This document shows, piece by piece, positions 6,429 to 25,439 of a DNA stretch of 27,333 nt. The position numbers and the translations under genes are program-made. Origin of the DNA: a virus; the IMG/VR virus record IMGVR_UViG_3300025914_000039, positions 1 through 27,333 of that record, one strand, 5' to 3'. Below the pieces are notes generated by a model, which searched no databases, was not told the DNA's origin, and worked only from the letters and a program-made list of their open reading frames with translations. Numbering within the stretch: position 1 is the stretch's first letter; every line of letters begins with the position of its first letter.

Positions 6429-7583
6429 TTATTTCCAAATCAGTTGATAGCAGACCGGGTGCATAGATTCCGTCATCGGAAGCATTGGCGGACACGGCAC
6501 AGAGCTTGCCTGCACGCCTAGCGTTCCTGACGGAGTGCCGACAGGCGCAAGAAGCATGATAAAGTCCCCGGACGGAGAACTAGCGTCAAGCGGTGCTGTT
6601 CCCGTACCTGATCCTGATACCGCAGGCGCGGCAATTCCGACGCCGCCCGATTGACCACCACGAAGTAAGACAGACCCGGATTGCCCCGCTGACGTACCGG
6701 AACGGAACCCGCCGACGATAAGACCATATGATCCATCACCCGTACAGGTGTCGCACGTTGCGGTGGTGCCCGTTCCTGTTCCCGTTGCTACAGCACCAAA
6801 CGCTAACTTAATACATGTTGGGTTACTCGCAAGAACATCAGGCGCAAGGTTGCCGCACGGAACAACGCCTTTGCTGTATAGCGGCATTGATGTCGTATCA
6901 GTGCCATCACCTGTCGGAAGTTCTAAAAAGATGACTGTGCCGTTCGTCGTGGGTCCGACAAACCCTGTCGTTCCGATATTGATTGATCCAGCATAGGTAG
7001 TTGACGACTTCAACCCGGTACCGTACGTGATAGTGCCATCGACAATCAATCCGTTCTTTCCATCACTATGCACGCCCGGATACGGGTCTGTCGGTGGCAC
7101 CACTACAGGCACCGCAACAACGTCAATTGCATCGACGATGGCGTTGCGTACGATCGTAGTAAACGTGATCGTGATACCAGTGCCACCCGTCGCCACGACT
7201 GGAAAATCGCGGTTGATTGGGTTGTTGAAGAACGTGACTGCAAGCATATCGAATGATGCCAGCACCTTCGTACCGTTGATAGCGACGTCAAAGATTCGTT
7301 GCCCGACACTGGTGACAGACGCGGAGTTCTCACGAAAATGCAGCGTGACCGTATAGGCACCGTCCGGAACATTGAACTTGTAAAAGAAGTTGCCGCCGCG
7401 AACTGTTTTCCAAAAATCGGATTCACCAGGGTTTGGTGCGACAGATTGCAGATACGGCGTGCCGCCCGTATAAAATGCGTCCGCCTGATAGATGCTGGTT
7501 GCGGGTCCGCCTGCATTGATGTGAAGGGGTAACGTTTGTGCCGCCGCTGTGATCGTGAATGCCAGAACTAGAAAGAGTTTCAT
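6429..7583 (-). CDS. Exported malectin-domain protein
   Basis: A 384-residue protein. Residues 1-16 (MKLFLVLAFTITAAAQ) form a Sec signal peptide. The segment about 18-158 is a malectin-type carbohydrate-binding domain: LHINAGGPATSIYQAD, FFYKFNVPDGAYTVTLHFRE, RIFDVAINGTKVL and AIVDAIDVV follow the family order. A proline linker (VVPPTDPYPG) leads to a Gly/Thr-rich repetitive C-terminal region of about 200 residues with a few cysteine pairs (CDTCTGD) that resembles phage fibre or adhesin sequence. Malectins bind oligosaccharides. A signal peptide is unusual for a virion protein, so it may act at the host envelope. It is coupled to the upstream gene by ATGA. Confidence 0.7.
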   Translation of the reverse strand: MKLFLVLAFTITAAAQTLPLHINAGGPATSIYQADAFYTGGTPYLQSVAPNPGESDFWKTVRGGNFFYKFNVPDGAYTVTLHFRENSASVTSVGQRIFDVAINGTKVLASFDMLAVTFFNNPINRDFPVVATGGTGITITFTTIVRNAIVDAIDVVAVPVVVPPTDPYPGVHSDGKNGLIVDGTITYGTGLKSSTTYAGSINIGTTGFVGPTTNGTVIFLELPTGDGTDTTSMPLYSKGVVPCGNLAPDVLASNPTCIKLAFGAVATGTGTGTTATCDTCTGDGSYGLIVGGFRSGTSAGQSGSVLLRGGQSGGVGIAAPAVSGSGTGTAPLDASSPSGDFIMLLAPVGTPSGTLGVQASSVPCPPMLPMTESMHPVCYQLIWK

Positions 7584-10615: not shown

Positions 10616-12760
10616 TTAGCCGTACATCGTCAGTTCGTGCACGCCGACAATGCTTCCGCTTACATTTGCTGTGATGTACAGCCGATAGTACGCGTATGAT
10701 GTCGAGTTTGAAAACGTGAACTTTACCGGAGTGAATAACGGCAAATCCGTGTAGTTGGTTTGCGTGTCAAGATCAGTCCACGTACTGCCGTCATTCGATC
10801 CTTGAAAAACCCAAGTCTTCGGAGAATGACCGGGAAAGTTGTCAAAACTCCACGTCGTGATGTCGTAGGAGGTCACAACCTTGCCCGATGAAAATTGGTA
10901 TTGAAGCCACTGCGGAAGCGAACTTCCATCGGATGCCCACCCTAAGATCGTTGTGGACTCCGGCTGTTGTGCAAATGCCCACCACGGCTGAAGAGTGCTA
11001 AAAGTACTCGACGCGGAAACCGTACCAGACGGCGCAGTCGTGCTCGTCATCTTCGGCATGAAGTTCGTTGGGAATCCTGCCAAACGATACGGCGCGCGCC
11101 CGATCTTTATTGACGGGCTTAGCGTCTCATCTGAAAGGTACATCACACCGCTTGCGACTGCTGCATCCGGAACACGAAACCGCATGCAGGCATTACCGCT
11201 GATCGGTCCGATATGCGCGTACAGCGCTGTCGTGACAAGCGACTTGATGTTTGACGCATCAATATCGTTGATTTCAAGTTGCCCGATCGATCCGCCCGGA
11301 GCATGAAACAACCAATTCGTGAACCCGTAGTTGCCGGAAAAATATGTCGGATTGATCGGGTCTATGATCCGCAGTCCATTAACACTCATGCGGTTTACAA
11401 CGCTGCTGTGGTCGACAAAAATCATGCCCGCTGAATTGGTGCTGTAATCCCGGTAAATCGTAAAGTTGCGGAAACTTAAACTGTTGATCTTTCCCTGTAC
11501 CGAACTGAACGTTACAGCTTGCCCGCCGTCGATAGGCGTCCAAGTACAGTTTGAAATTTGAAGGTCCCCGACCGGATCACCAAGCAAGTCTACAAACTGC
11601 GTTGACCGGAAACGGCAGTTATCTAGCTGTACGTTTTGAATCCAATCAACATCAGTTGATCCGGAATTTGCATTGCCTAGACGAATTGCTGCGTCAGAAG
11701 AAAGAGAAATTCCCGCTGTGTAGCCTGAGCAATTGCTCATAACCACGTCACGAACTTTTGCACGATGCGAGGAATCAAAGATCGAATAGCACCGCATTGC
11801 CGTCAACGTGCCCTTGAACGTGCAATTCGTGATCGCCACCCGCGTAATATCGCCGCTGTAACCTTCGGGCGCATTTAATGCAATGGCGTCGTCACCGTTA
11901 TTGTCAAAAAAGCAATCTTCAATCCGTACGTCGTTCGCGGGTCCGTTCACGTGTACGCCGTCACAGTTGACAGTATGGAAATCGTCACGCGTGCTTGCAT
12001 TACGAACATCGATGTTTCCACAGTTATCGAACGTGATGCTGAAAGTCGGTGGGTTTAAAACACGAACATTTTCAATGAGAATGTTGTTCATGTTTGTAAC
12101 CCAAATTCCATAAATCCATTCACCACTCGGTTTCAAACGTGGATCAGATCCCGAAGAATTTGCGGCGCGATTGCAGTTTATGAACATGTTGCGAATCGTC
12201 ACGTTCGCACCGCGTGAAGGTATCGATCCGCCCGGAGTCCCCGCTACTAAATCGGTATCGCAACGAATGGCGTGCTGACTCGATCCGGCTTTCATACAAA
12301 TCCCCGTGTCGAGTCCATTACTTTCAAGCGTAACGTGCCCACCTGATGGTATTAAAAGACCTGTCACGAGTGCGCCACCGTCAATCACAAGCCGCACGGG
12401 TGCGGTTGCAACTGCTGTTGCAAGTGCATTATTTATGATGGTAGTGTCATCAGTCGCGGTACCGCCGCCGATTTTCGCGCCTGTCGTCACATCGCAGTCA
12501 AGCGCGCAACCGAGAGCGGACGCGTAAAGCACCACAGTTGACCCGCTGTTGCTTCCATCAGCGCCGTCTGCACCTGCGGGTCCTTGATCCCCCTGCGGTC
12601 CTTGCGGTCCCTGTGGGCCTTGTTCGCCCTGAATGCCTTGTTCGCCTTGAATTCCTTGTTCGCCTTGCGGTCCTTGCGGTCCTGTAAAACCGCGCGGTCC
12701 TTGTGGTCCCACAGATCCCCCACTTCCGCTACCTTCGCCAATGACGATAGAAGCACTCAT
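10616..12760 (-). CDS. Collagen-like tailspike/fibre: beta-helix plus discoidin domain
   Basis: A 714-residue protein with three parts. Residues 18-69 are Gly-X-Y repeats of PQG/EQG type (collagen-like stalk). Residues about 95-480 contain repeated ...NCxF/V.. turns ([34 protein letters not shown]), the right-handed parallel beta-helix pattern of pectate-lyase-like tailspikes and depolymerases. The last 140 residues, with [39 protein letters not shown] and [10 protein letters not shown], form a discoidin (F5/8 type C) sugar-binding domain. The N-terminus [12 protein letters not shown] resembles the start of the next fibre (MSETVVIGAGSG), so both may share a docking peptide. It probably binds or cleaves a surface polysaccharide. 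Confidence 0.8.
12554..12709 (-). repeat. Collagen-like Gly-X-Y repeat region in the tailspike gene
   Basis: The codons for residues 18-69 form a run of 9 nt-periodic repeats. On the plus strand they appear as tandem copies of CCTTGCGGT and CCTTGTTCG variants. They encode Gly-Pro-Gln, Gly-Glu-Gln and Gly-Ile-Gln triplets, which form trimeric triple-helical stalks in phage fibres. Such repeats change length easily by slippage. Confidence 0.85.
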
Positions 12761-15352: not shown

Positions 15353-16345
15353 TTACCCGAGAACTGCGCTGTACAGATAACCGAGTGCGGGCGCGACGAG
15401 ACCAAAGGCGTACGCCTGTTGGATTTCGACGATGTCGGATTCACGTTCCTCGACGCGGTACTTCTTGATGCGCCATCCCGAAGACGTCACACCTTCAAGT
15501 CCCTGCCAGTTGAACGTATAGCCGCCCGACGCAACCATGAGACCGGGTGCGGGTGCTGCGTACGTCAACAGTGCGTTTGGTCCGCCGATGAAATCGAACG
15601 TGTCGGTTGCCGCGCCTTCGGGCGAAGTGGTTTGCACGGCACCCATGACAACAACCTTGTCGACTTCGAACAGTGCCGCCAAATCGGAATTCGTCACCTT
15701 GACGGGTCCGGGTGCGGTCTGCCCGTACTTCAAGCGGTCGATGATTTCGGGATTCGTCTTCAGCGCTTGATGGGTTTTGTAACCGAGAACCAGAACATTC
15801 GGTTCGTATCCGGTTGACGCGTGAATCGCAACCTTGCCTGCAAGGATGTCTTCGATCGGCGTCGAACCGCCCGTGTTCCAGTACTTGACGTGCGTCGAAT
15901 CGGAAGCGCCCGCCTGTCCGGTAACGGTGGTGCCCCAACCACTGCCCGCAGTAAAGTACGCGGATGCCCACGCGATTTCACGATTCAGAAGCGCCTGATT
16001 CGTCAGGTACTCCGTGGCCATGTAATCGAGGTTAAGCATACGATCCGCGTTGCGGCGGATACCATCGGGAATCGGGTACCCGAGTGCCCAATCATTACAG
16101 GAATACGCGGTCGTCGAAAGGCGTACGCCACCCATTTCGACAAGCGCGCCCGGTGCCCGCTGCTGCATCACGTGGCGCAACAGATCAGCACGCGACCAAC
16201 GATAGAAGCTGTCGGACTTGTGTTCGACGGGCACAGGCGGAAAAACACTCATCGCAGCAAGATCGACGTTCTGAACGCGAAACGCTTCGGTGAGCATCGT
16301 TAACGGTTGATTTACGTGAACGTCACTCTGTGTTGGAATCGGCAT
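15353..16345 (-). CDS. Major capsid protein
   Basis: A 330-residue protein with AAGGAGA before its ATG, the best ribosome-binding site in the window. The N-arm (FPPVPVEHKSDSFYRWSRAD and RAPGALVEMGG) matches the conserved start of a family of HK97-fold capsid proteins (FP...V...SD.Y...RAD...APG.E). LLNREIAWASAYF and YEPNVLVLGYKTHQALKTNPE are the helix and A-domain elements typical of the family. VDKVVVMGAV and WRIKKYRVEERESDIVEI are late P/A-domain strands. The gene order scaffold, decoration, capsid supports it. A segment of its N-arm is echoed in the Tat-signal protein. Confidence 0.9.
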   Translation of the reverse strand: MPIPTQSDVHVNQPLTMLTEAFRVQNVDLAAMSVFPPVPVEHKSDSFYRWSRADLLRHVMQQRAPGALVEMGGVRLSTTAYSCNDWALGYPIPDGIRRNADRMLNLDYMATEYLTNQALLNREIAWASAYFTAGSGWGTTVTGQAGASDSTHVKYWNTGGSTPIEDILAGKVAIHASTGYEPNVLVLGYKTHQALKTNPEIIDRLKYGQTAPGPVKVTNSDLAALFEVDKVVVMGAVQTTSPEGAATDTFDFIGGPNALLTYAAPAPGLMVASGGYTFNWQGLEGVTSSGWRIKKYRVEERESDIVEIQQAYAFGLVAPALGYLYSAVLG

Positions 16346-16383: not shown

Positions 16384-16752
16384 TTACAGCTTCGCGATCG
16401 GTTGAAAGACCATTCGGACAATGCCCGCAACAGAAATCGTTTCGAGCGATTGCCCTAAAATCCAGTCCCCGGAAACGGACCGGAACGCCTGCCCGGTCGC
16501 GTCCGACGACAAGAAGTCGCCAGTGTTGACAGGGGCAGAGCAATAAACACGCGTGATGTCACCGGGACGACAGCACTGTCCGGGTTGACCTTGCGCGGTC
16601 GGTTTGTCCTGCAAAACGGTGGTTGCGTACCCGCCGAGTGTTGGCAGTGCAAGTTGACCGCTGCTGTTAATCCGCATAAAGCGGAACTGATAGGCGGTCA
16701 AGTCTGCACTTGCCGGAAGAGACTTCGGTCCTGTGATTACGTCGCTAGCCAT
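16384..16752 (-). CDS. Head decoration-type protein (DUF2190-like)
   Basis: A 122-residue protein, beta-rich throughout: AYQFRFMRINSSGQLALP, VYCSAPVNTGDFLSSDATGQAF, WILGQSLETISVAGIVRMVF. The composition and the GDFLSSDATGQ type turn are those of small capsid decoration or stabilisation proteins encoded just before the major capsid gene. AGGAGA lies 7 nt before ATG. The gene is separated from the scaffold gene by a hairpin, consistent with high expression together with the capsid gene. Confidence 0.65.
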   Translation of the reverse strand: MASDVITGPKSLPASADLTAYQFRFMRINSSGQLALPTLGGYATTVLQDKPTAQGQPGQCCRPGDITRVYCSAPVNTGDFLSSDATGQAFRSVSGDWILGQSLETISVAGIVRMVFQPIAKL

Positions 16753-16816: not shown

Positions 16817-18427
16817 TTAGTCCTTCATTCCGGCTTCGTACTCTTCGTACAGATCCGGGTTTTCCTTCAAAGCCTTCGCGAACGCGATTTCTTTGCCGAC
16901 GCCGTCGCGCTTCGCGATTTCGCCCGCCTTCGCTTCCAGTTGCCCCATAACGCCGACGCCTTCGCCGCCACCCGTGCCGCCGCCGTCCTTGCCGATCGGA
17001 CGCAAGTTCGACTTCATCAGCTTGTTGGCGGTTTTCTGCGTTTCAAGGTACTGCTTAAACAACGGCGTGTCTTCGCCGCCGCACGCATCCGCCATCGCTT
17101 GCAAGGTCGCGCCCTTCTCGACGTCCGTGCCGCTCAACTTGTCGATATGGGACTTCGCGATCGATGTGAAGTGTAACAGGCGTTCGCGCTTGTGGATGTC
17201 GGCAAGGTCGGTCTGTGACTTCGTCAACGCTGTTTTCAGCGTCGCGTTCTCGCTGACGACCGTGTTGACCTTCAAAACCAGCGATTCGTATTCGGCCTTC
17301 GTGATGTTGACCGCGTCACCTTTGTTCACGTCGCTACCATCCTCGCCGTCGTCGTTCTTGTTCGCTTTCGCGGCCTTCGCCTTCGCTTTCTTGTCGCAGG
17401 CGTCCATCATCTCTTTCTTGCCTGCATCGTCCGCCGCCATGTACTTCTTTTGATCGTCGTCGGACATTTCATCGAAGAAGGACTTTTCTTTTGCCGACAT
17501 CTTCTTTGCGACTTCCGCACGCGACTTGAAGAACTGGTTTTCCTCGGTCAACGCCGTGATAGATGCGGCTTGTTTGGCGATTTCCGCATTCGCTTTTGCG
17601 ATCTCTGCGTCTTGCGCCGTTTGCTTTTTGACGATGTCATCGATAGTCATTTGATCTGCGGGCATTTCTGTTTCCTCACTTTTTAGAATTTCGGGCAAGT
17701 CATCACTGCCCTTATCGGGATTTGCTTTCTTCCATGCAGAACGCACTTTAGCTTTCACTGCGGCGCGTGCCGCATCCGGTATCTCCACCGTTTGGCCACG
17801 ATATCCACCGGGACCGAGTGCCGCGACTGCTGCGCCGACAATACGCGGATCGGGATCACCGCCCGGTGTACTTGTCAAACGAAGCTTCCATTCCGAAACG
17901 TTGTCGCTCGGAGTGTACGCGAAATCGGACTTCGGAAAGATTTTCCCGTCGACCGTTTTGCCTTCGATGGCTTTTGTTACTTCGTCGATTTCGGCGTCTT
18001 CCTTCGTGATAATGCCGAATCTTCCAGCCGCTTGACTTAAATTGCGCGCAGTTAACGACGCAGTCCGTGAAGGATTCGATGCGGCATTGTCGTGCGCCTT
18101 GCTTGCCAAGATGTGTGCGGATAATCCATCCGTCGAGTTTGCTTGCGTCGCGGCTTGCAGGTGGTGTGCCGCTGCTGCTAGATGCGCGTCTTTATTGTCG
18201 GCATGCTCTGCCGCGTGTTGACCGGGTCCGACGCCACCACCCGCCCGGTATTTGCCCTTGTCGCGTCCCTGATTCATCGAATACTTTTCGATGTCACCAT
18301 CACGCTTGAACAACGCGATCGTGGCACGCGGCACATGCGCGCCTGTCTTCGGGTCCTTCTCTGCATTCGCAGGACGGTCAACTAGGCTGACTTCCCGCAC
18401 GGTCAAGTCCGTTAATTGATTCGCCAT
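16817..18427 (-). CDS. Scaffold-like head protein with DUF6582 and protease-like N-terminus
   Basis: A 536-residue protein. The first 20 residues (DLTVREVSLVDRPANAEKD) carry the V-S-L-V-D-x-P-A motif found at the start of phage XkdF-like proteases. Residues about 165-245 (DFAYTPSDN, EWKLRLTSTPGG, RIVGAAVAALGPGGYRGQ, AVKAKVRSAWKKANPDK) match DUF6582. The middle is a coiled coil (QDAEIAKANAEIAKQAAS). The C-terminal half is Lys/Asp/Glu-rich and ends in a helical charged tail, as in scaffolding proteins. No complete protease triad is visible; the gene at 22218 supplies the protease. It probably acts in prohead assembly. No Shine-Dalgarno site precedes its ATG. Confidence 0.65.
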   Translation of the reverse strand: MANQLTDLTVREVSLVDRPANAEKDPKTGAHVPRATIALFKRDGDIEKYSMNQGRDKGKYRAGGGVGPGQHAAEHADNKDAHLAAAAHHLQAATQANSTDGLSAHILASKAHDNAASNPSRTASLTARNLSQAAGRFGIITKEDAEIDEVTKAIEGKTVDGKIFPKSDFAYTPSDNVSEWKLRLTSTPGGDPDPRIVGAAVAALGPGGYRGQTVEIPDAARAAVKAKVRSAWKKANPDKGSDDLPEILKSEETEMPADQMTIDDIVKKQTAQDAEIAKANAEIAKQAASITALTEENQFFKSRAEVAKKMSAKEKSFFDEMSDDDQKKYMAADDAGKKEMMDACDKKAKAKAAKANKNDDGEDGSDVNKGDAVNITKAEYESLVLKVNTVVSENATLKTALTKSQTDLADIHKRERLLHFTSIAKSHIDKLSGTDVEKGATLQAMADACGGEDTPLFKQYLETQKTANKLMKSNLRPIGKDGGGTGGGEGVGVMGQLEAKAGEIAKRDGVGKEIAFAKALKENPDLYEEYEAGMKD

Positions 18428-18428
18428 T

Positions 18429-18794
18429 TTAAAAAACCGTGATGCGCCTGATATTGGAATCGCGGATAGCTACCCGCGCAAACGAAGGCAAAATAATACA
18501 ACCATGACTTGCTTTTCCGGGGTGTGCAGAACTGTCGCCGTGAATTAGGAACCCGTCACGCCCGAAGACGTTTGTACCCGGTCGCGGGTAAAGATGCGCG
18601 ACTGTGGGACCAAAGCGCGGGTCATTGAAGAAAGACCCGATGTTGAACTCACCGCGTGGAATTGGTCCGACGTCATGAACAGATTCTTTATCAGGGTTGT
18701 TGTATCCGGCATCGATGCCTGAATACCCCGTAGAGAACACGACGCCGTCTTTTAGAAGCTGTCCTGTTTTAGATCCGTATGCCCAAGAGGTCAT
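18429..18794 (-). CDS. L,D-transpeptidase-like protein (DUF2778/Tlde1 type), possible lysin
   Basis: A 121-residue protein. The N-terminus has SWAYGSKTGQLLKDG and STGYSG, then VHDVGPIPRGEF and GRDGFLIHGDS (H85), then KASHGCII (C99). The H-G, then S-x-G-C pattern is the catalytic signature of L,D-transpeptidase-like cysteine enzymes, here in the short DUF2778/Tlde1 arrangement, which remodel or cleave peptidoglycan cross-links. There is no signal peptide, so a holin or export partner would be needed. Surrounded by head genes, it may be the phage endolysin or a virion-associated cell-wall enzyme. Overlaps the small frame upstream by ATGA. Confidence 0.65.
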   Translation of the reverse strand: MTSWAYGSKTGQLLKDGVVFSTGYSGIDAGYNNPDKESVHDVGPIPRGEFNIGSFFNDPRFGPTVAHLYPRPGTNVFGRDGFLIHGDSSAHPGKASHGCIILPSFARVAIRDSNIRRITVF

Positions 18795-18899: not shown

Positions 18900-19439
18900 C
18901 TATATTCTAGGATGGATCACACGACGCAAGATCTTGAGGTCCCCCGATGGCGACGAAACAAAAATTCGTTTCGGTTTAGCAAGACGTTTTCGAAGCTTCG
19001 CGGTTTCGTTCAGGTGGCAAGCGATGCACAGGGTGCGCAAGTTGTCGATACTGTTCTTGCCGCCTTCCACCACAGGAACGATGTGATCAGCATCCCACCA
19101 GTCACCCCATGAACGATGATTCGGAACATGCAAACTTTCTGAATACTTGATCGCGGCGGCACGGTCTTTCCTCAACAGGTGCGAATGCTTTGCAGACTGC
19201 ATGCACGTGTCGACTTTGCAAATTGCGCAAATCCCGTGATCACGTTTTTCAACTTGCCGCCGAATGTATGTCCAATCATTTTCGCCTTTGAAAATTAAAA
19301 CGCATTTCGTTGAACACCAGTAAATGCGACCGGACGGAACTTCAGTTCCGCATACGCAGACACGCCGCCCGGTCGGACCGCGCTTGTCGGCAACGCCGTG
19401 TTTCTTTCGGTATTGTTCAGCGGTCAAGAATCGCGACAT
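18900..19439 (-). CDS. HNH endonuclease
   Basis: A 179-residue protein. WDADHIVPVVEGG with D118-H119, N133 and CIACHLNET (C138 to C141, H142) forms the beta-beta-alpha-metal HNH site. A second zinc site is formed by CVCG (28-31), WCSTKC (42-46) and CAIC (71-74), a typical accessory ribbon of phage HNH enzymes. These nucleases act as homing or packaging-associated DNA nickases. There is no ribosome-binding site. It lies inside the accessory island, away from any terminase gene seen here, which favours a mobile homing enzyme. Confidence 0.85.
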   Translation of the reverse strand: MSRFLTAEQYRKKHGVADKRGPTGRRVCVCGTEVPSGRIYWCSTKCVLIFKGENDWTYIRRQVEKRDHGICAICKVDTCMQSAKHSHLLRKDRAAAIKYSESLHVPNHRSWGDWWDADHIVPVVEGGKNSIDNLRTLCIACHLNETAKLRKRLAKPKRIFVSSPSGDLKILRRVIHPRI

Positions 19440-20634: not shown

Positions 20635-22218
20635 TCACGCTGCGATTGCCGCACGCTTTCCACTGCCGCCGATTGACCACGCTTTTAAACGTCCGGACTT
20701 CACGCCCGCCCATGTAACCGGGTCGTCAATCTTGAAGCCACCCCACCATGCAATGCATTTTAGATCGATCGTCGCAAGAATCCCCTGCTTCCGCAACGAT
20801 GCAACCATCGCTTGAACCTTTTCTTCCGTGAACACAACCGATTCAACAAGCCGCCCGATACCGCGAACCACACCGTCACCTGTCTGTTCATGCATTTCAC
20901 CGCCAGTGCGCGCGTCAAGCACGAAATTGTAAGCACAAGCTTCAAGCATTTCCGGAACGATGATGTCACCTTGCGTATCGACAACACTGCGCCCCTCGAC
21001 GGTCACAACCGAGAACCACCCAAAAGCGATTTGCTGTTCGCCGTCGACTTTGATGATGTCGCCTTCGATTTCGTAAAGACCGGACGCATCCGACGCATCA
21101 TTGATGCCTTCAAGACGGTATTGCTTTACGGCAGATCCAACCGAAAGCCCTACGCTAGTGACGCCGAATCGAAGTTCATTGTCTTCGGTTCCGTCGTCAG
21201 CGTCAGGTTCTTCGGTGCCCGCAGGAACGTACGTAATAGTGGCGTGTGGTGTATAGCCGTTGAAATTGTTCTTTGGCGCAATTCCTGCCTGTCCTAACGC
21301 GTTTACAAGCCCGTCACGGAACGCTAGCAGTTCATCCGACCGAACTACCGCATAAATGACGTCAAGCCCGTCTGAGTGCTCCGTAGCGTCAAAGCGCCCG
21401 TATCCGTCAAACACCACTTCAAACGGCGCGATCTTGGCACAGTATGCGGCGGTAATGTCCTCGATTTTCTTTAGGTCTTCAAACGGGACGTCCGCAAGCT
21501 TGCCGAAATATCCAAGCGTGATGTGGATGTCTTCGGGTGCTTCACCACCTTCGACCGATAACGCTTCTTGAATGGCTTGCGGTGGCCAAAGCGCAAGCAT
21601 GACACCGTTTCCGGCTTTCGCGACCGTAACGTCACCATCAAAATGCTTGTCAAGCTTACGCAGGATCTTTGCAGTCCAAACACCTGCGTACGTGTCCGCC
21701 CACGACCACGAATCCGGCTGTTCATTCTTTGTGATCGCTTCGTCAATCGCACACACGATGTCAAGCGATAGACTTTCGCCCTTTGCGATTGTTTCGGTCA
21801 CGACATCCGTTGACCCATTTGCGTGCGCACGCTTTGCCGCTGATACCAGCGTTGCAGGCGGATCGTACGTTTTCTTCTTGCCGGGTTTCTTTGGTTTTCG
21901 AAACGGGTCGATTGTCGGCAGTACACCGACTGGTGAATCCTGGTGGACATCGGTTGTCGTGAGAACATCTTTCGCGATGACGTCACCATCACACAATGCG
22001 ATCGGCAACGCTTCAAGCCAAAGCTTTGGTTCCCGTTCGCGATCTATGGCGACGTCATAAGGACCGATCTTGACAACGACGGTAGCGTGCTGCTGAAAGA
22101 ATGAAGATCCGAAGTCTGCGCCGACGCACTTGTTGCACGACATAACAAGACCGTTTTCGAATCCAATCATTGCAGCTTGCGCGTACCCGACGTCCGTTTT
22201 GTACAGGATTTCAACCAT
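20635..22218 (-). CDS. 2H phosphoesterase fused to XkdF-like prohead protease
   Basis: A 527-residue two-enzyme protein. Residues about 200-335 carry HITLGYFG (H232) and HATITYV (H325), the paired HxT/S motifs of the 2H phosphoesterase (2'-5' RNA ligase-like) fold. Residues about 395-520 form an XkdF-type phage serine protease: VVDTQGDIIVPEML, EMHEQTG (likely catalytic H443) and LKAWSIGGSG (likely S515), which matures the prohead by cleaving scaffold and capsid. The N-terminal 190 residues contain a short cysteine pair (CNKC), a hydrolase-unlike body and a basic linker (RKPKKPGKKK). The position between the head morphogenesis and capsid genes fits the protease. Confidence 0.75.
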   Translation of the reverse strand: MVEILYKTDVGYAQAAMIGFENGLVMSCNKCVGADFGSSFFQQHATVVVKIGPYDVAIDREREPKLWLEALPIALCDGDVIAKDVLTTTDVHQDSPVGVLPTIDPFRKPKKPGKKKTYDPPATLVSAAKRAHANGSTDVVTETIAKGESLSLDIVCAIDEAITKNEQPDSWSWADTYAGVWTAKILRKLDKHFDGDVTVAKAGNGVMLALWPPQAIQEALSVEGGEAPEDIHITLGYFGKLADVPFEDLKKIEDITAAYCAKIAPFEVVFDGYGRFDATEHSDGLDVIYAVVRSDELLAFRDGLVNALGQAGIAPKNNFNGYTPHATITYVPAGTEEPDADDGTEDNELRFGVTSVGLSVGSAVKQYRLEGINDASDASGLYEIEGDIIKVDGEQQIAFGWFSVVTVEGRSVVDTQGDIIVPEMLEACAYNFVLDARTGGEMHEQTGDGVVRGIGRLVESVVFTEEKVQAMVASLRKQGILATIDLKCIAWWGGFKIDDPVTWAGVKSGRLKAWSIGGSGKRAAIAA

Positions 22219-22913: not shown

Positions 22914-23906
22914 TCACGCAACCGCAGTCTTCCCCGGAAACGACAACGTGATCGAGCACCGACACGACGGGTGCGGATCTGGCGGTTCCATTATTCCCGG
23001 TTCAAACTCTTCGTCAAGTCCTGCAAGCTTGCCGTCGAGGTCATCGCATTCATCACACGTTCGATCATCACCAGACGTGACCCACTTGCGACGAACCCCA
23101 ACACCTAACAATCCCTGTTCTTGCGCTTGCCGCCACAGTTCCCGCTGTCCGGAATTCGACGCACGGATTGTTTCTGTTCGTGCGATCGTCTGTGCGCGGT
23201 GTGTCAAGTAATTCTGTCGGTACCGATCAACCATCGCGTCGATGCGGTCCTGTGATAAACCTTTCCCGTTTTTCAGGGAAGCAAGAAGTGATCGATCATA
23301 GCGTCCATCACGTAATGCGCGGTCAAGAGCATCGCGAAACTTTCCGGTTTCAAGTTCGTTCCGGTAGTTCAACAACGCGCGTTCCTGCATGCGAGTTAAT
23401 CCGATCGCATCACGAATTTCAATCGCCTGTTCGTACGGGTGCCCACCTTCTTGAAAGGCACGCGTCAACACTTCTTGGATTGTCTGCTTTGCATCAACCG
23501 TCAAATCTCGAATCAAGTCAAATGTGTAAGACTCGATCGCGTCAACGGCTTTCGGGTTCATCAGGTTAAAAGACAGCTGCGTCGATATCGTCTTTGGGAG
23601 TTCCGAAATTGCGGTATTCGCGCCTGCAAGAAAGGTTTGTTGTAAGGCGTCACGAACGCTAGCGATTCCAACCTCAATGCCGACACCTTTCAACGCGCCC
23701 GCAAACGCTTTGTCAAGCCCGAGAATTGCAAGAACCTGATTCGCATTACGTGCTTCGATCGCTTTTGCAAGCGCGTCTAGGTTGACCGTATCCTTCGCGG
23801 CTTTGATAGCATTCAGAAACGCACGACGGACTTTCGGAGTCATCTTGTCAGCAATACGGATGATGGCTTCGTCAGTCAGCGCTTTTCGAATGAACCGTAC
23901 CGCCAT
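22914..23906 (-). CDS. Head morphogenesis protein (Mu F / SPP1 gp7-like)
   Basis: A 330-residue protein. Its C-terminal domain (RTETIRASNSGQRELWR, then KWVTSGDDRTCDECDDLDG, then PHPSCRCSI) carries the conserved RTE-x(n)-W.....D.RTC..C....G......PPxHPxCRC pattern of the minor head protein family that aids portal-linked assembly. The N-terminal two thirds is helical, with LTRMQERALLNYRNELETG typical of the family. It follows the portal gene by 9 nt. There is no ribosome-binding site; TAAACT lies 6 nt before the ATG. Confidence 0.85.
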   Translation of the reverse strand: MAVRFIRKALTDEAIIRIADKMTPKVRRAFLNAIKAAKDTVNLDALAKAIEARNANQVLAILGLDKAFAGALKGVGIEVGIASVRDALQQTFLAGANTAISELPKTISTQLSFNLMNPKAVDAIESYTFDLIRDLTVDAKQTIQEVLTRAFQEGGHPYEQAIEIRDAIGLTRMQERALLNYRNELETGKFRDALDRALRDGRYDRSLLASLKNGKGLSQDRIDAMVDRYRQNYLTHRAQTIARTETIRASNSGQRELWRQAQEQGLLGVGVRRKWVTSGDDRTCDECDDLDGKLAGLDEEFEPGIMEPPDPHPSCRCSITLSFPGKTAVA

Positions 23907-23915
23907 AGTTAAAGT

Positions 23916-25439
23916 TTAGTAGGTTCTACGACGTCGTAATTTGTCAGGTACCGCACGCCGCCGCTTTTCTACTAACTCCGTGGTTTGAACTTCCTGTTGT
24001 CCAGCATTATCGCCTGATTGAACAGGATCGTCACCTTCGTCAAGTTCCGCTGTGGAGTCGTCATCAAGTCCGAATGTTTGCGCCATTTCTGACGGCTGAT
24101 CCGGCAAGTCCGCCTTTTTACGCAAGATTGACGCGGTATCAGGATCAGTCAACGCAATGCCCGCCGCCGCAAGCTTCGCAACGTAATTACCGAGTTCTTC
24201 AAGGTCACGGCCTTCGATCTCACCCGGTACCAGCTTCGGCGCTAAACCTAAGTCCATGCCGTTCAAATCCATCAATCGTGGAATCGCATGACGATTCATG
24301 ACTGCTGCAACTGCCTTCATAAACACTGATAGTGCACGTGCAAAGATCTGTGTCGCCGAAATGTGAAGCGCCCGCGCGCCTGTTTCGGTCTGTCCCAGTT
24401 GGATAAATCCGGCAAGCACCGTGTTTAAGATGTCTTGATTGTGGCGCTTGATAATTGCACCTGCATCAAATTGCTTGCCGCCTGCGGTCTTCAACAGTTC
24501 AAGCTGAACGACTCGGTTGCCACTGCCGTCGAATGCAGCGGGCAGTACTGCGCCCATTTGCGAGTCAACACGAATGTTCCGGATCATGCGTTCTGCTTTA
24601 GCACGCCCGCCCATTTGGGCGATTGCTTCCGCCGACGCATACAGCACAGGCAAGCCGCAAAGATCGCGTTCAAGTCCGATGCCTTCAACTTCTTCGTCAC
24701 GGGTTTTCAGCAACCACGGACGAAAACAGTTACGCAGGACTGAACGTCCTTCGGGATTATTTTTGATTGATGTGGTGCGGAAAAGTAACAGACGTTCAAT
24801 CGGAATCGGGATCGTTCGGAAATTTGGTGGTGCTAACTGCACGCACCCGCGTAATCCGCCTTCATCGTCCCATTCCCAGTACTCGATTGATTCCTGTGCG
24901 CGCGGTGCAAGCTTGCGCCACCCGATCAGACCGTCATCGAATCGACTGACAGATTCACCCGTGGGACCATCGCGCCGCTTATAGACAGGTTCCGCAAGGC
25001 TGAATCCGAACGTGAACATGTTGACGGTTTCAGCGATGAAATCTTCCCACGTGTGGGACATGTCGTCCATGCACTCTTCAAAGAATCGTGCATATCCAAC
25101 AGCTTTTGAATTGCCTTTCGCTTCTTCGACGTACCAGTCGGTCGTGCGTAGGATTGTTTCGAGAGCAAAGAATAGCGCGCCAAGAACGGCGTCATTGTCG
25201 CGCATTTGCCGGAAGATTTTTCGTTGCTTGTTAACCGAGAGTTGCGCAAGCCATTCTTCATATACGAACCCGACGCCGCGCGTCCGCAACAATCCGGTTG
25301 TGCCGAACTCTTCAGTTGGTTTTAGGTCTGCATACTGCTGAACGCCACCCGGTAACACCATCGGAACGGCAGCGGGTCCGCCACCGTATGCGTACGGTAC
25401 GGTTGTTGCTATTTTCGCAATGCGATCAATCAATGACAT
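23916..25439 (-). CDS. Portal protein (DUF935 / Mu gp29-like)
   Basis: A 507-residue protein. MRDNDAVLGALFFALETILR, DDMSHTWEDFIAE with GFSLAEPVYKRR, and SRFDDGLIGWRKLAPRAQES are the sequential blocks of the phage portal family related to Mu gp29/DUF935. They are followed by RLLLFRTTSIKNNPEGRSVLR and RDEEVEGIGLERDLCGLPV. The C-terminal part has the helical tail and the acidic, Gln-rich end expected. It forms the dodecameric ring through which DNA enters. It is the first gene after a promoter-bearing gap, with only a weak GAGAA ribosome-binding site. Confidence 0.9.
   Translation of the reverse strand: MSLIDRIAKIATTVPYAYGGGPAAVPMVLPGGVQQYADLKPTEEFGTTGLLRTRGVGFVYEEWLAQLSVNKQRKIFRQMRDNDAVLGALFFALETILRTTDWYVEEAKGNSKAVGYARFFEECMDDMSHTWEDFIAETVNMFTFGFSLAEPVYKRRDGPTGESVSRFDDGLIGWRKLAPRAQESIEYWEWDDEGGLRGCVQLAPPNFRTIPIPIERLLLFRTTSIKNNPEGRSVLRNCFRPWLLKTRDEEVEGIGLERDLCGLPVLYASAEAIAQMGGRAKAERMIRNIRVDSQMGAVLPAAFDGSGNRVVQLELLKTAGGKQFDAGAIIKRHNQDILNTVLAGFIQLGQTETGARALHISATQIFARALSVFMKAVAAVMNRHAIPRLMDLNGMDLGLAPKLVPGEIEGRDLEELGNYVAKLAAAGIALTDPDTASILRKKADLPDQPSEMAQTFGLDDDSTAELDEGDDPVQSGDNAGQQEVQTTELVEKRRRAVPDKLRRRRTY

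Follow-up and report, generated by a model that had tools for sequence, protein, structure and literature searches.

A LigT-type 2H phosphoesterase fused to a phage prohead protease, a possible eraser of nucleotide alarm signals on the head

Why would a putative prohead protease share its chain with a 2H phosphoesterase? This question was raised by a gene on a 27,333-nucleotide stretch of viral DNA (IMG/VR record IMGVR_UViG_3300025914_000039, positions 1 to 27,333; hereafter the window). The gene encoded a protein of 527 residues, P0001, in which a LigT-type 2H domain was followed by an XkdF prohead protease domain in a single frame (Table 1). A preliminary description, made from the letters alone, had located the gene correctly and left its strand unstated; the gene lies on the minus strand. 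The motifs that it had named, HITLGYFG (H232/T234) and HATITYV (H325/T327) for the 2H part and VVDTQGDII, EMHEQ and WSIGGSG for the protease part, were all present in P0001. The fusion and both domain calls were also borne out, with PF13563 and PF14550 each exceeding the Pfam cut-off. The 2H enzyme had been described as embedded in the protease gene. This was right for the fusion and wrong for the embedding, since the 2H domain precedes the protease domain rather than lying inside it. A match to PHROG 14859 covered both domains (residues 192-523). A 67-codon frame stopped 1 base from the start of P0001, and 3 bases lay between the P0001 stop and the next start. ATG, GTG and TTG were absent from codons 330-404, and therefore a separately started protease was not apparent. 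An artefact of assembly or gene calling was considered, because the sequence is a metagenome contig and the closest independent relative had just 65% identity in XkdF. However, the identical gene was found on a second contig, with 12,696 bases identical between the contigs, and fusions recurred in cultivated phages; an artefact is extremely improbable. The fusion of 2H and XkdF in one frame was confirmed as real.

Table 1. Features of the fusion gene and its neighbours, in window positions
Feature	Position	Strand	Basis
2H-XkdF fusion protein P0001, 527 aa	20635..22218	-	single frame, Pfam, PHROG
Weak capsid-motif copy DVLTTTDVHQDSPVG, residues 84-98	21925..21969	-	best P0001 site, 4.5 bits
Helical segment, residues 119-193	21640..21864	-	alignment; pLDDT low, mostly 50-61
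2H phosphoesterase domain, residues 203-371	21106..21612	-	PF13563, AlphaFold2, VIA
First HxT motif, H232-T234	21517..21525	-	conservation
Second HxT motif, H325-T327	21238..21246	-	conservation
XkdF/S78_2 prohead protease domain, residues 388-522	20653..21057	-	PF14550; VIA
H443, candidate catalytic histidine	20890..20892	-	invariance; catalytic role putative
S515 (SIGG), candidate catalytic serine	20674..20676	-	invariance and spacing; assignment putative
Portal protein (Mu type)	23916..25439	-	Pfam PF06074
MuF-like head protein	22914..23906	-	Pfam PF04233
Scaffold-like protein, putative	16817..18427	-	position only; phrog_19463, function unknown
Head decoration/scaffolding-like protein	16384..16752	-	phrog_673
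Major capsid protein	15353..16345	-	phrog_1005
Major capsid N-terminal motif PIPTQSDVHVNQPLT	16298..16342	-	

The P0001 gene sat between the portal and MuF genes and the scaffold and capsid genes. An HNH endonuclease gene (18900-19439) lay between the fusion gene and the scaffold-like gene, and a small Tlde1/YkuD (L,D-transpeptidase-like) gene (18429-18794) stood directly before the scaffold-like gene. A PIG-L deacetylase (763-1350), a malectin domain (6429-7583) and a collagen/GH28-like/F5-8C protein (10616-12760) were seen among the late genes. These are probably sugar-related tail parts.

The 2H domain was examined by profile, conservation and predicted structure. Pfam PF13563 (2_5_RNA_ligase2) matched residues 231-357 with an E value of 2.2e-12 and 47.7 bits (cut-off 27). 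Two other 2H families were also above their cut-offs, PF10469 with 25.6 bits (24.4) and PF02834 with 24.4 bits (23.3). In a set found with an HMM that favours rows keeping the histidines, H232 and T234 were each kept in all 30 distinct 2H domains in which the column was covered and H325 in 31 of 31, and the T327 column was T in 28 of 31 (S in one, C in two). AlphaFold2 with a 22-row alignment gave approximately 90 pLDDT for the 2H part, where ten-residue blocks of residues 201-370 were mostly 80-96; residues 1-118 were poor, mostly below 50, and the XkdF part was middling. In VIA comparisons of residues 203-371, the closest folds were D. radiodurans DrCPDase (5h7e, Z 18.2, 157 residues, rmsd 2.7) and E. 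coli LigT (5ldm, Z 16.1). Usb1 gave Z 14.9, rotavirus VP3 PDE 13.5, MHV ns2 13.2 and penguinpox cGAMP PDE 9.7. In the case of Acb1, the values were 11.5 for 9q2g (the phage BCSR5 PDE, which carries the name Acb1 in the PDB sequence table) and 10.6 for 7t26 (FBB1), with higher values for other 2H enzymes. The preliminary description had named a structure without the two-histidine cleft as the outcome that would speak against it. The predicted fold was that of a 2H enzyme, and both histidines were kept in relatives. By its motifs, Pfam matches and predicted bilobal fold, the domain is a LigT-like member of the 2H superfamily. By Pfam it was not Acb1, since PF23474 gave 13.4 bits for P0001 and 14.9 for the sister contig, both under the cut-off of 27. 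In modelled fold and profile, RNA 2',3'-cyclic phosphodiesterases are closer to the domain than Acb1 is.

A domain of this kind could also be a passenger or a structural assembly aid whose catalysis is unimportant. AKAP7-type 2H domains are binding modules, and many XkdF ORFs had other N-terminal extensions and no 2H, which is consistent with such a role. However, both catalytic histidines were present in every distinct domain covering them, though with the preference of the search HMM mentioned above, and we regard a non-catalytic passenger as very unlikely.

The protease domain was treated in the same way. PF14550 (Peptidase_S78_2/XkdF) matched residues 388-522 with an E value of 1.1e-12 and 48.5 bits (cut-off 24). 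Modelled alone on 84 rows, the domain reached a pLDDT of 80.0 and a pTM of 0.74. The best VIA match of this model was T4 gp21 (5jbl_B, Z 8.4, rmsd 3.1, 112 residues), which was the closest solved fold with an identity of about 11%. The next row after gp21 had Z 3.9, and HCMV protease had 3.6. Foldseek returned nothing with E < 0.5 for the same model, so that gp21 was seen by VIA only, and no head protease was matched when the XkdF sequence profile was compared with solved structures. H443, S460 and S515 were invariant in 84 of 84 XkdF rows. S515 is the candidate catalytic serine, picked by analogy with the spacing in assemblins. The gp21-like modelled fold supported the protease name, which is "putative" in Pfam. 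T4 gp21 is not known to carry a 2H domain.

The pairing of 2H with XkdF was also found outside the window. P0001 gave 37 matches among 50,697 annotated phage records, of which 15 spanned both domains (14 Arthrobacter, 1 Microbacterium), 19 covered 2H alone and 3 XkdF alone. Six of the 2H-only matches were inspected, five in annotated records and one in an unannotated record. In four of the five annotated records, the 2H was within or close to genes for portal, MuF or protease, and the neighbours in GMA6 were labelled hypothetical. Arthrobacter phage Salgado gp18, Ottawa gp87 and Microbacterium phage ValentiniPuff gp7 had 2H and then XkdF in one gene, which was near portal and capsid genes like that of the window, and they were approximately 24-25% identical to P0001. 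The labels of 2H-XkdF genes in sister phages were RNA ligase, aldolase class I, capsid maturation protease and hypothetical. Scans with single proteins (P0001, the Acb1-XkdF piece of locus L060 and the 2H piece of L017) gave few loci. A search of a plasmid collection gave six weak records and no full match, and PADLOC gave no match for the four proteins submitted.

A larger set was collected from two IMG/VR scans for XkdF (the best 80 of 482 and the best 80 of 377 relatives), a genome scan (25 loci) and the earlier loci. It held 142 distinct XkdF ORFs, and 16 of them, the window included, had 2H in the same ORF. At 70% identity, 14 of 73 XkdF clusters were fused to 2H, a value inflated by the second scan, which put fused loci first. 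Among the loci of the first scan, which were not ranked by 2H, 5 of 29 XkdF clusters were fused, plus one with Acb1. In an XkdF tree made by a quick method on few columns, the window belonged to a well-supported clade of 14, nine of which were fused. Three other members (L003, L018 and L132) had 2H in a gene upstream of XkdF, giving 12 of 14 with 2H fused or upstream, and L135 and L146 were without it. The fused label changed at least three times on well-supported branches and 11 times on the best tree, as gains or losses.

Several relatives carried further enzymes. In L124, L125, L126, L136 and L142 (957-1316 aa), histidine phosphatase, 2H and XkdF were on one chain; L136 additionally had an ADP-ribosyltransferase, and a ChaB match at E < 0.01 was obtained in three of these five. 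L141 combined ART-PolyVal, 2H and XkdF, and L003 had 2H with a zeta-toxin domain in a gene upstream of XkdF. One non-structural enzyme domain was recognised in P0001, compared with several in the five relatives, and the protein looks like a short form of a family with multi-enzyme relatives. A segment like residues 119-193 of P0001 occurred in relatives directly before 2H or in cargo proteins. A QPRxxxGRW/F linker, or a sequence near to it, preceded the effector domains in the cargo proteins of L003, L129, L135 and L136, and the L136 copy overlapped PF24260 (DUF7461). XkdF was followed by a MuF-like domain, below the cut-off, in one ORF each of L038 (4746-6242) and L057 (1411-2814).

A capsid motif was shared with these proteins. 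The capsid protein of many related phages starts with PTxxDVHVNxPLT, and the same motif, ending in G, recurred in XkdF or adjoining cargo proteins (for example L003:1457-3388, L124:3379-6966, L129:3328-5691 and L004:868-1581). At 12 bits or more, it was found in 16 of 139 XkdF ORFs versus 4 of 3,947 other non-capsid ORFs, in 0 of 15 ORFs that had 2H without XkdF, and in none of the shuffled XkdF ORFs. The strong copies of L003 and L129 were on the cargo protein adjoining XkdF and not on XkdF itself. This favoured a possible docking or packaging tag rather than a self-cleavage site; the alternative is a common cleavage site. Co-variation of the motif with the genome's own capsid (25 pairs, p 5e-5 by permutation) was rejected as a separate signal. 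The capsid tree leaves one independent pair, and therefore the co-variation was not independent of kinship.

The signal-nuclease family Acb1 was found in the same slot. Acb1 was directly before XkdF in L060 (3797-5245, 112 bits, cut-off 27), and it also preceded XkdF in L261 (2788-4749, 90 bits) and in L234 (4776-6167, 126 bits), where XkdF was below the Pfam cut-off (19.9 vs 24). It preceded Peptidase_S78 in L221 (4989-6347, 130 bits) and DUF2213 in L257 (4770-6638, 128 bits). In RHEph04, DUF2213 was also noted under a gene that bears the label head maturation protease. When L060 and two Acb1 domains borne on portals were used as scan queries, 65 loci with 54 distinct domains were recovered. 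The tally, biased to head fusions by two of the three query rows being portal-fused, was 39 portal ORFs, 3 with XkdF, 1 MuF, 2 stand-alone and 9 other long ORFs. Pfam was run on eight of these ORFs and confirmed Acb1 in all eight. Four of the nine other long ORFs were assigned in this way, to S78 (L221), DUF2213 (L257), Portal_Mu (L228) and 2H only (L217); L228 and L232 had portal domains together with Acb1, and no head domain accompanied it in L217 and L241. In the cultivated phages phiPSA1 (L202:2657-4459) and RHEph04 (L203:2648-4495), the portal ended in Acb1 with 148 and 121 bits, respectively. Acb1, a known family of signal nucleases, thus recurs on the head proteins that also carry LigT-type 2H.

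Two readings in which the substrate is RNA were weighed against these results. The 2H domain might heal RNA ends by opening the 2',3'-cyclic phosphates that host toxin RNases leave on tRNAs or mRNAs, at entry or late in infection. The closest solved folds, DrCPDase and LigT, are RNA cyclic-phosphodiesterases, and the histidine phosphatase domains on the same chain in relatives, or HAD-like stretches seen there by eye, could remove the resulting phosphate. However, RNA ligase (PF09414), RtcB (PF01139) and KptA (PF01885) were each found in 0 of 21 related records, which may be fragments, and PMC5512222 reports no case of such 2H versions together with RNA ligases. RNA end healing is unlikely on this evidence. 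The 2H domain might otherwise be a Usb1-like RNase effector that is delivered to the next host, as one of many interchangeable injected enzymes. This would agree with the good fold match of Usb1, with the ART, zeta-toxin and kinase-like domains among the cargo of that protein or its neighbour, and with the RNase role proposed in excerpts of PMC5512222 for MuF/portal-fused 2H. However, the same slot is filled in other phages by Acb1, a signal nuclease, and we hold an injected RNase to be quite improbable.

These results led us to propose that P0001 might be a bifunctional late head protein, with a gp21-like protease and an active 2H eraser of nucleotide alarm signals; the chances of this reading appear to us evenly balanced. 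The C-terminal XkdF domain would be the protease that matures the prohead, and the LigT-type 2H would be an active, metal-independent phosphoesterase on the same chain. The 2H would go where the protease goes, into assembling heads, and perhaps also into the virion and from there into the next cell. Against retention in the virion, prohead proteases often degrade themselves. Late expression is also an odd choice for an enzyme required at an early stage, except where the enzyme arrives with the particle or works during assembly. The 2H would most likely cut 2'-5' or cyclic oligonucleotide signals of a CBASS- or OAS-like defence. A head-borne 2H acting on such signals gained support from the Acb1 domains at the equivalent place in XkdF, S78 and DUF2213 proteins. 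This role, as suggested in the preliminary description, is plausible and is in print for MuF/portal fusions, but the domain falls short of the Acb1 cut-off, and its predicted fold resembles RNA cyclic-phosphodiesterases more than Acb1.

Head proteins that carry effector enzymes are already known. For 2H domains joined to MuF or portal proteins, Iyer et al. 2017 (PMC5512222) proposed packaging and a role as RNase or signal degrader. Parts of a 2022 paper (PMC9503650) repeat the signal-degrader reading and mention a Nudix domain fused to a capsid-processing serine peptidase. In these polyvalent proteins, as in P0001, the 2H is on a late head protein; unlike them, P0001 has its 2H fused to a prohead protease. 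The word "XkdF" was in neither main text, and the single occurrence of "prohead protease" was in the title of a reference cited by the 2017 paper. According to two further papers, phage and poxvirus LigT-like PDEs cut cGAMP (PMC11410667) and Acb1-type enzymes erase CBASS signals (PMC9117128). The P0001 domain shares with Acb1 the 2H fold and two HxT motifs, but it scores below the Acb1 cut-off and is nearer to LigT/CPDase. LigT and CPDase differ from P0001 in that they are stand-alone cellular RNA enzymes with no head protein. T4 Acb1 is a separate small protein. In the literature searched, which was thin on subscription papers, neither 2H nor Acb1 was found described on a prohead protease. 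Within that literature, three features therefore appear to be new, namely 2H on a prohead protease, its pairing with XkdF across the clade, and Acb1 on three Pfam head-protease families.

A more specific form of the proposed eraser concerns the protease itself. According to part of a review (PMC12409349), the prohead protease of phage Bas13 interacts with a CBASS sensor, and prohead proteases are reported to act as triggers of CBASS. The 2H might be tethered to the prohead protease because the protease triggers CBASS, so that the trigger would carry its own antidote, in several unrelated lineages. The cyclic nucleotide would then be destroyed where and when it is made. The LigT-type 2H of the window would be one version, and Acb1 on XkdF, S78 and DUF2213 proteins would be another. 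With the Bas13 protease taken by function and not by Pfam family, an eraser on its trigger is a sound hypothesis, which we hold as possible but on balance doubtful.

The fusion is present in phages under cultivation, namely Arthrobacter phage Salgado and its kin (on strain ATCC 21022), and it can therefore be tested at once. Public labels would be corrected as well, in which one gene is variously an RNA ligase, an aldolase or a protease across records. If the hypothesis is true, the fusions would make new anti-signalling enzymes easy to find by bioinformatics, and phages would attach the eraser to the trigger, with 2H or Acb1 on XkdF, S78 and DUF2213 head proteases.
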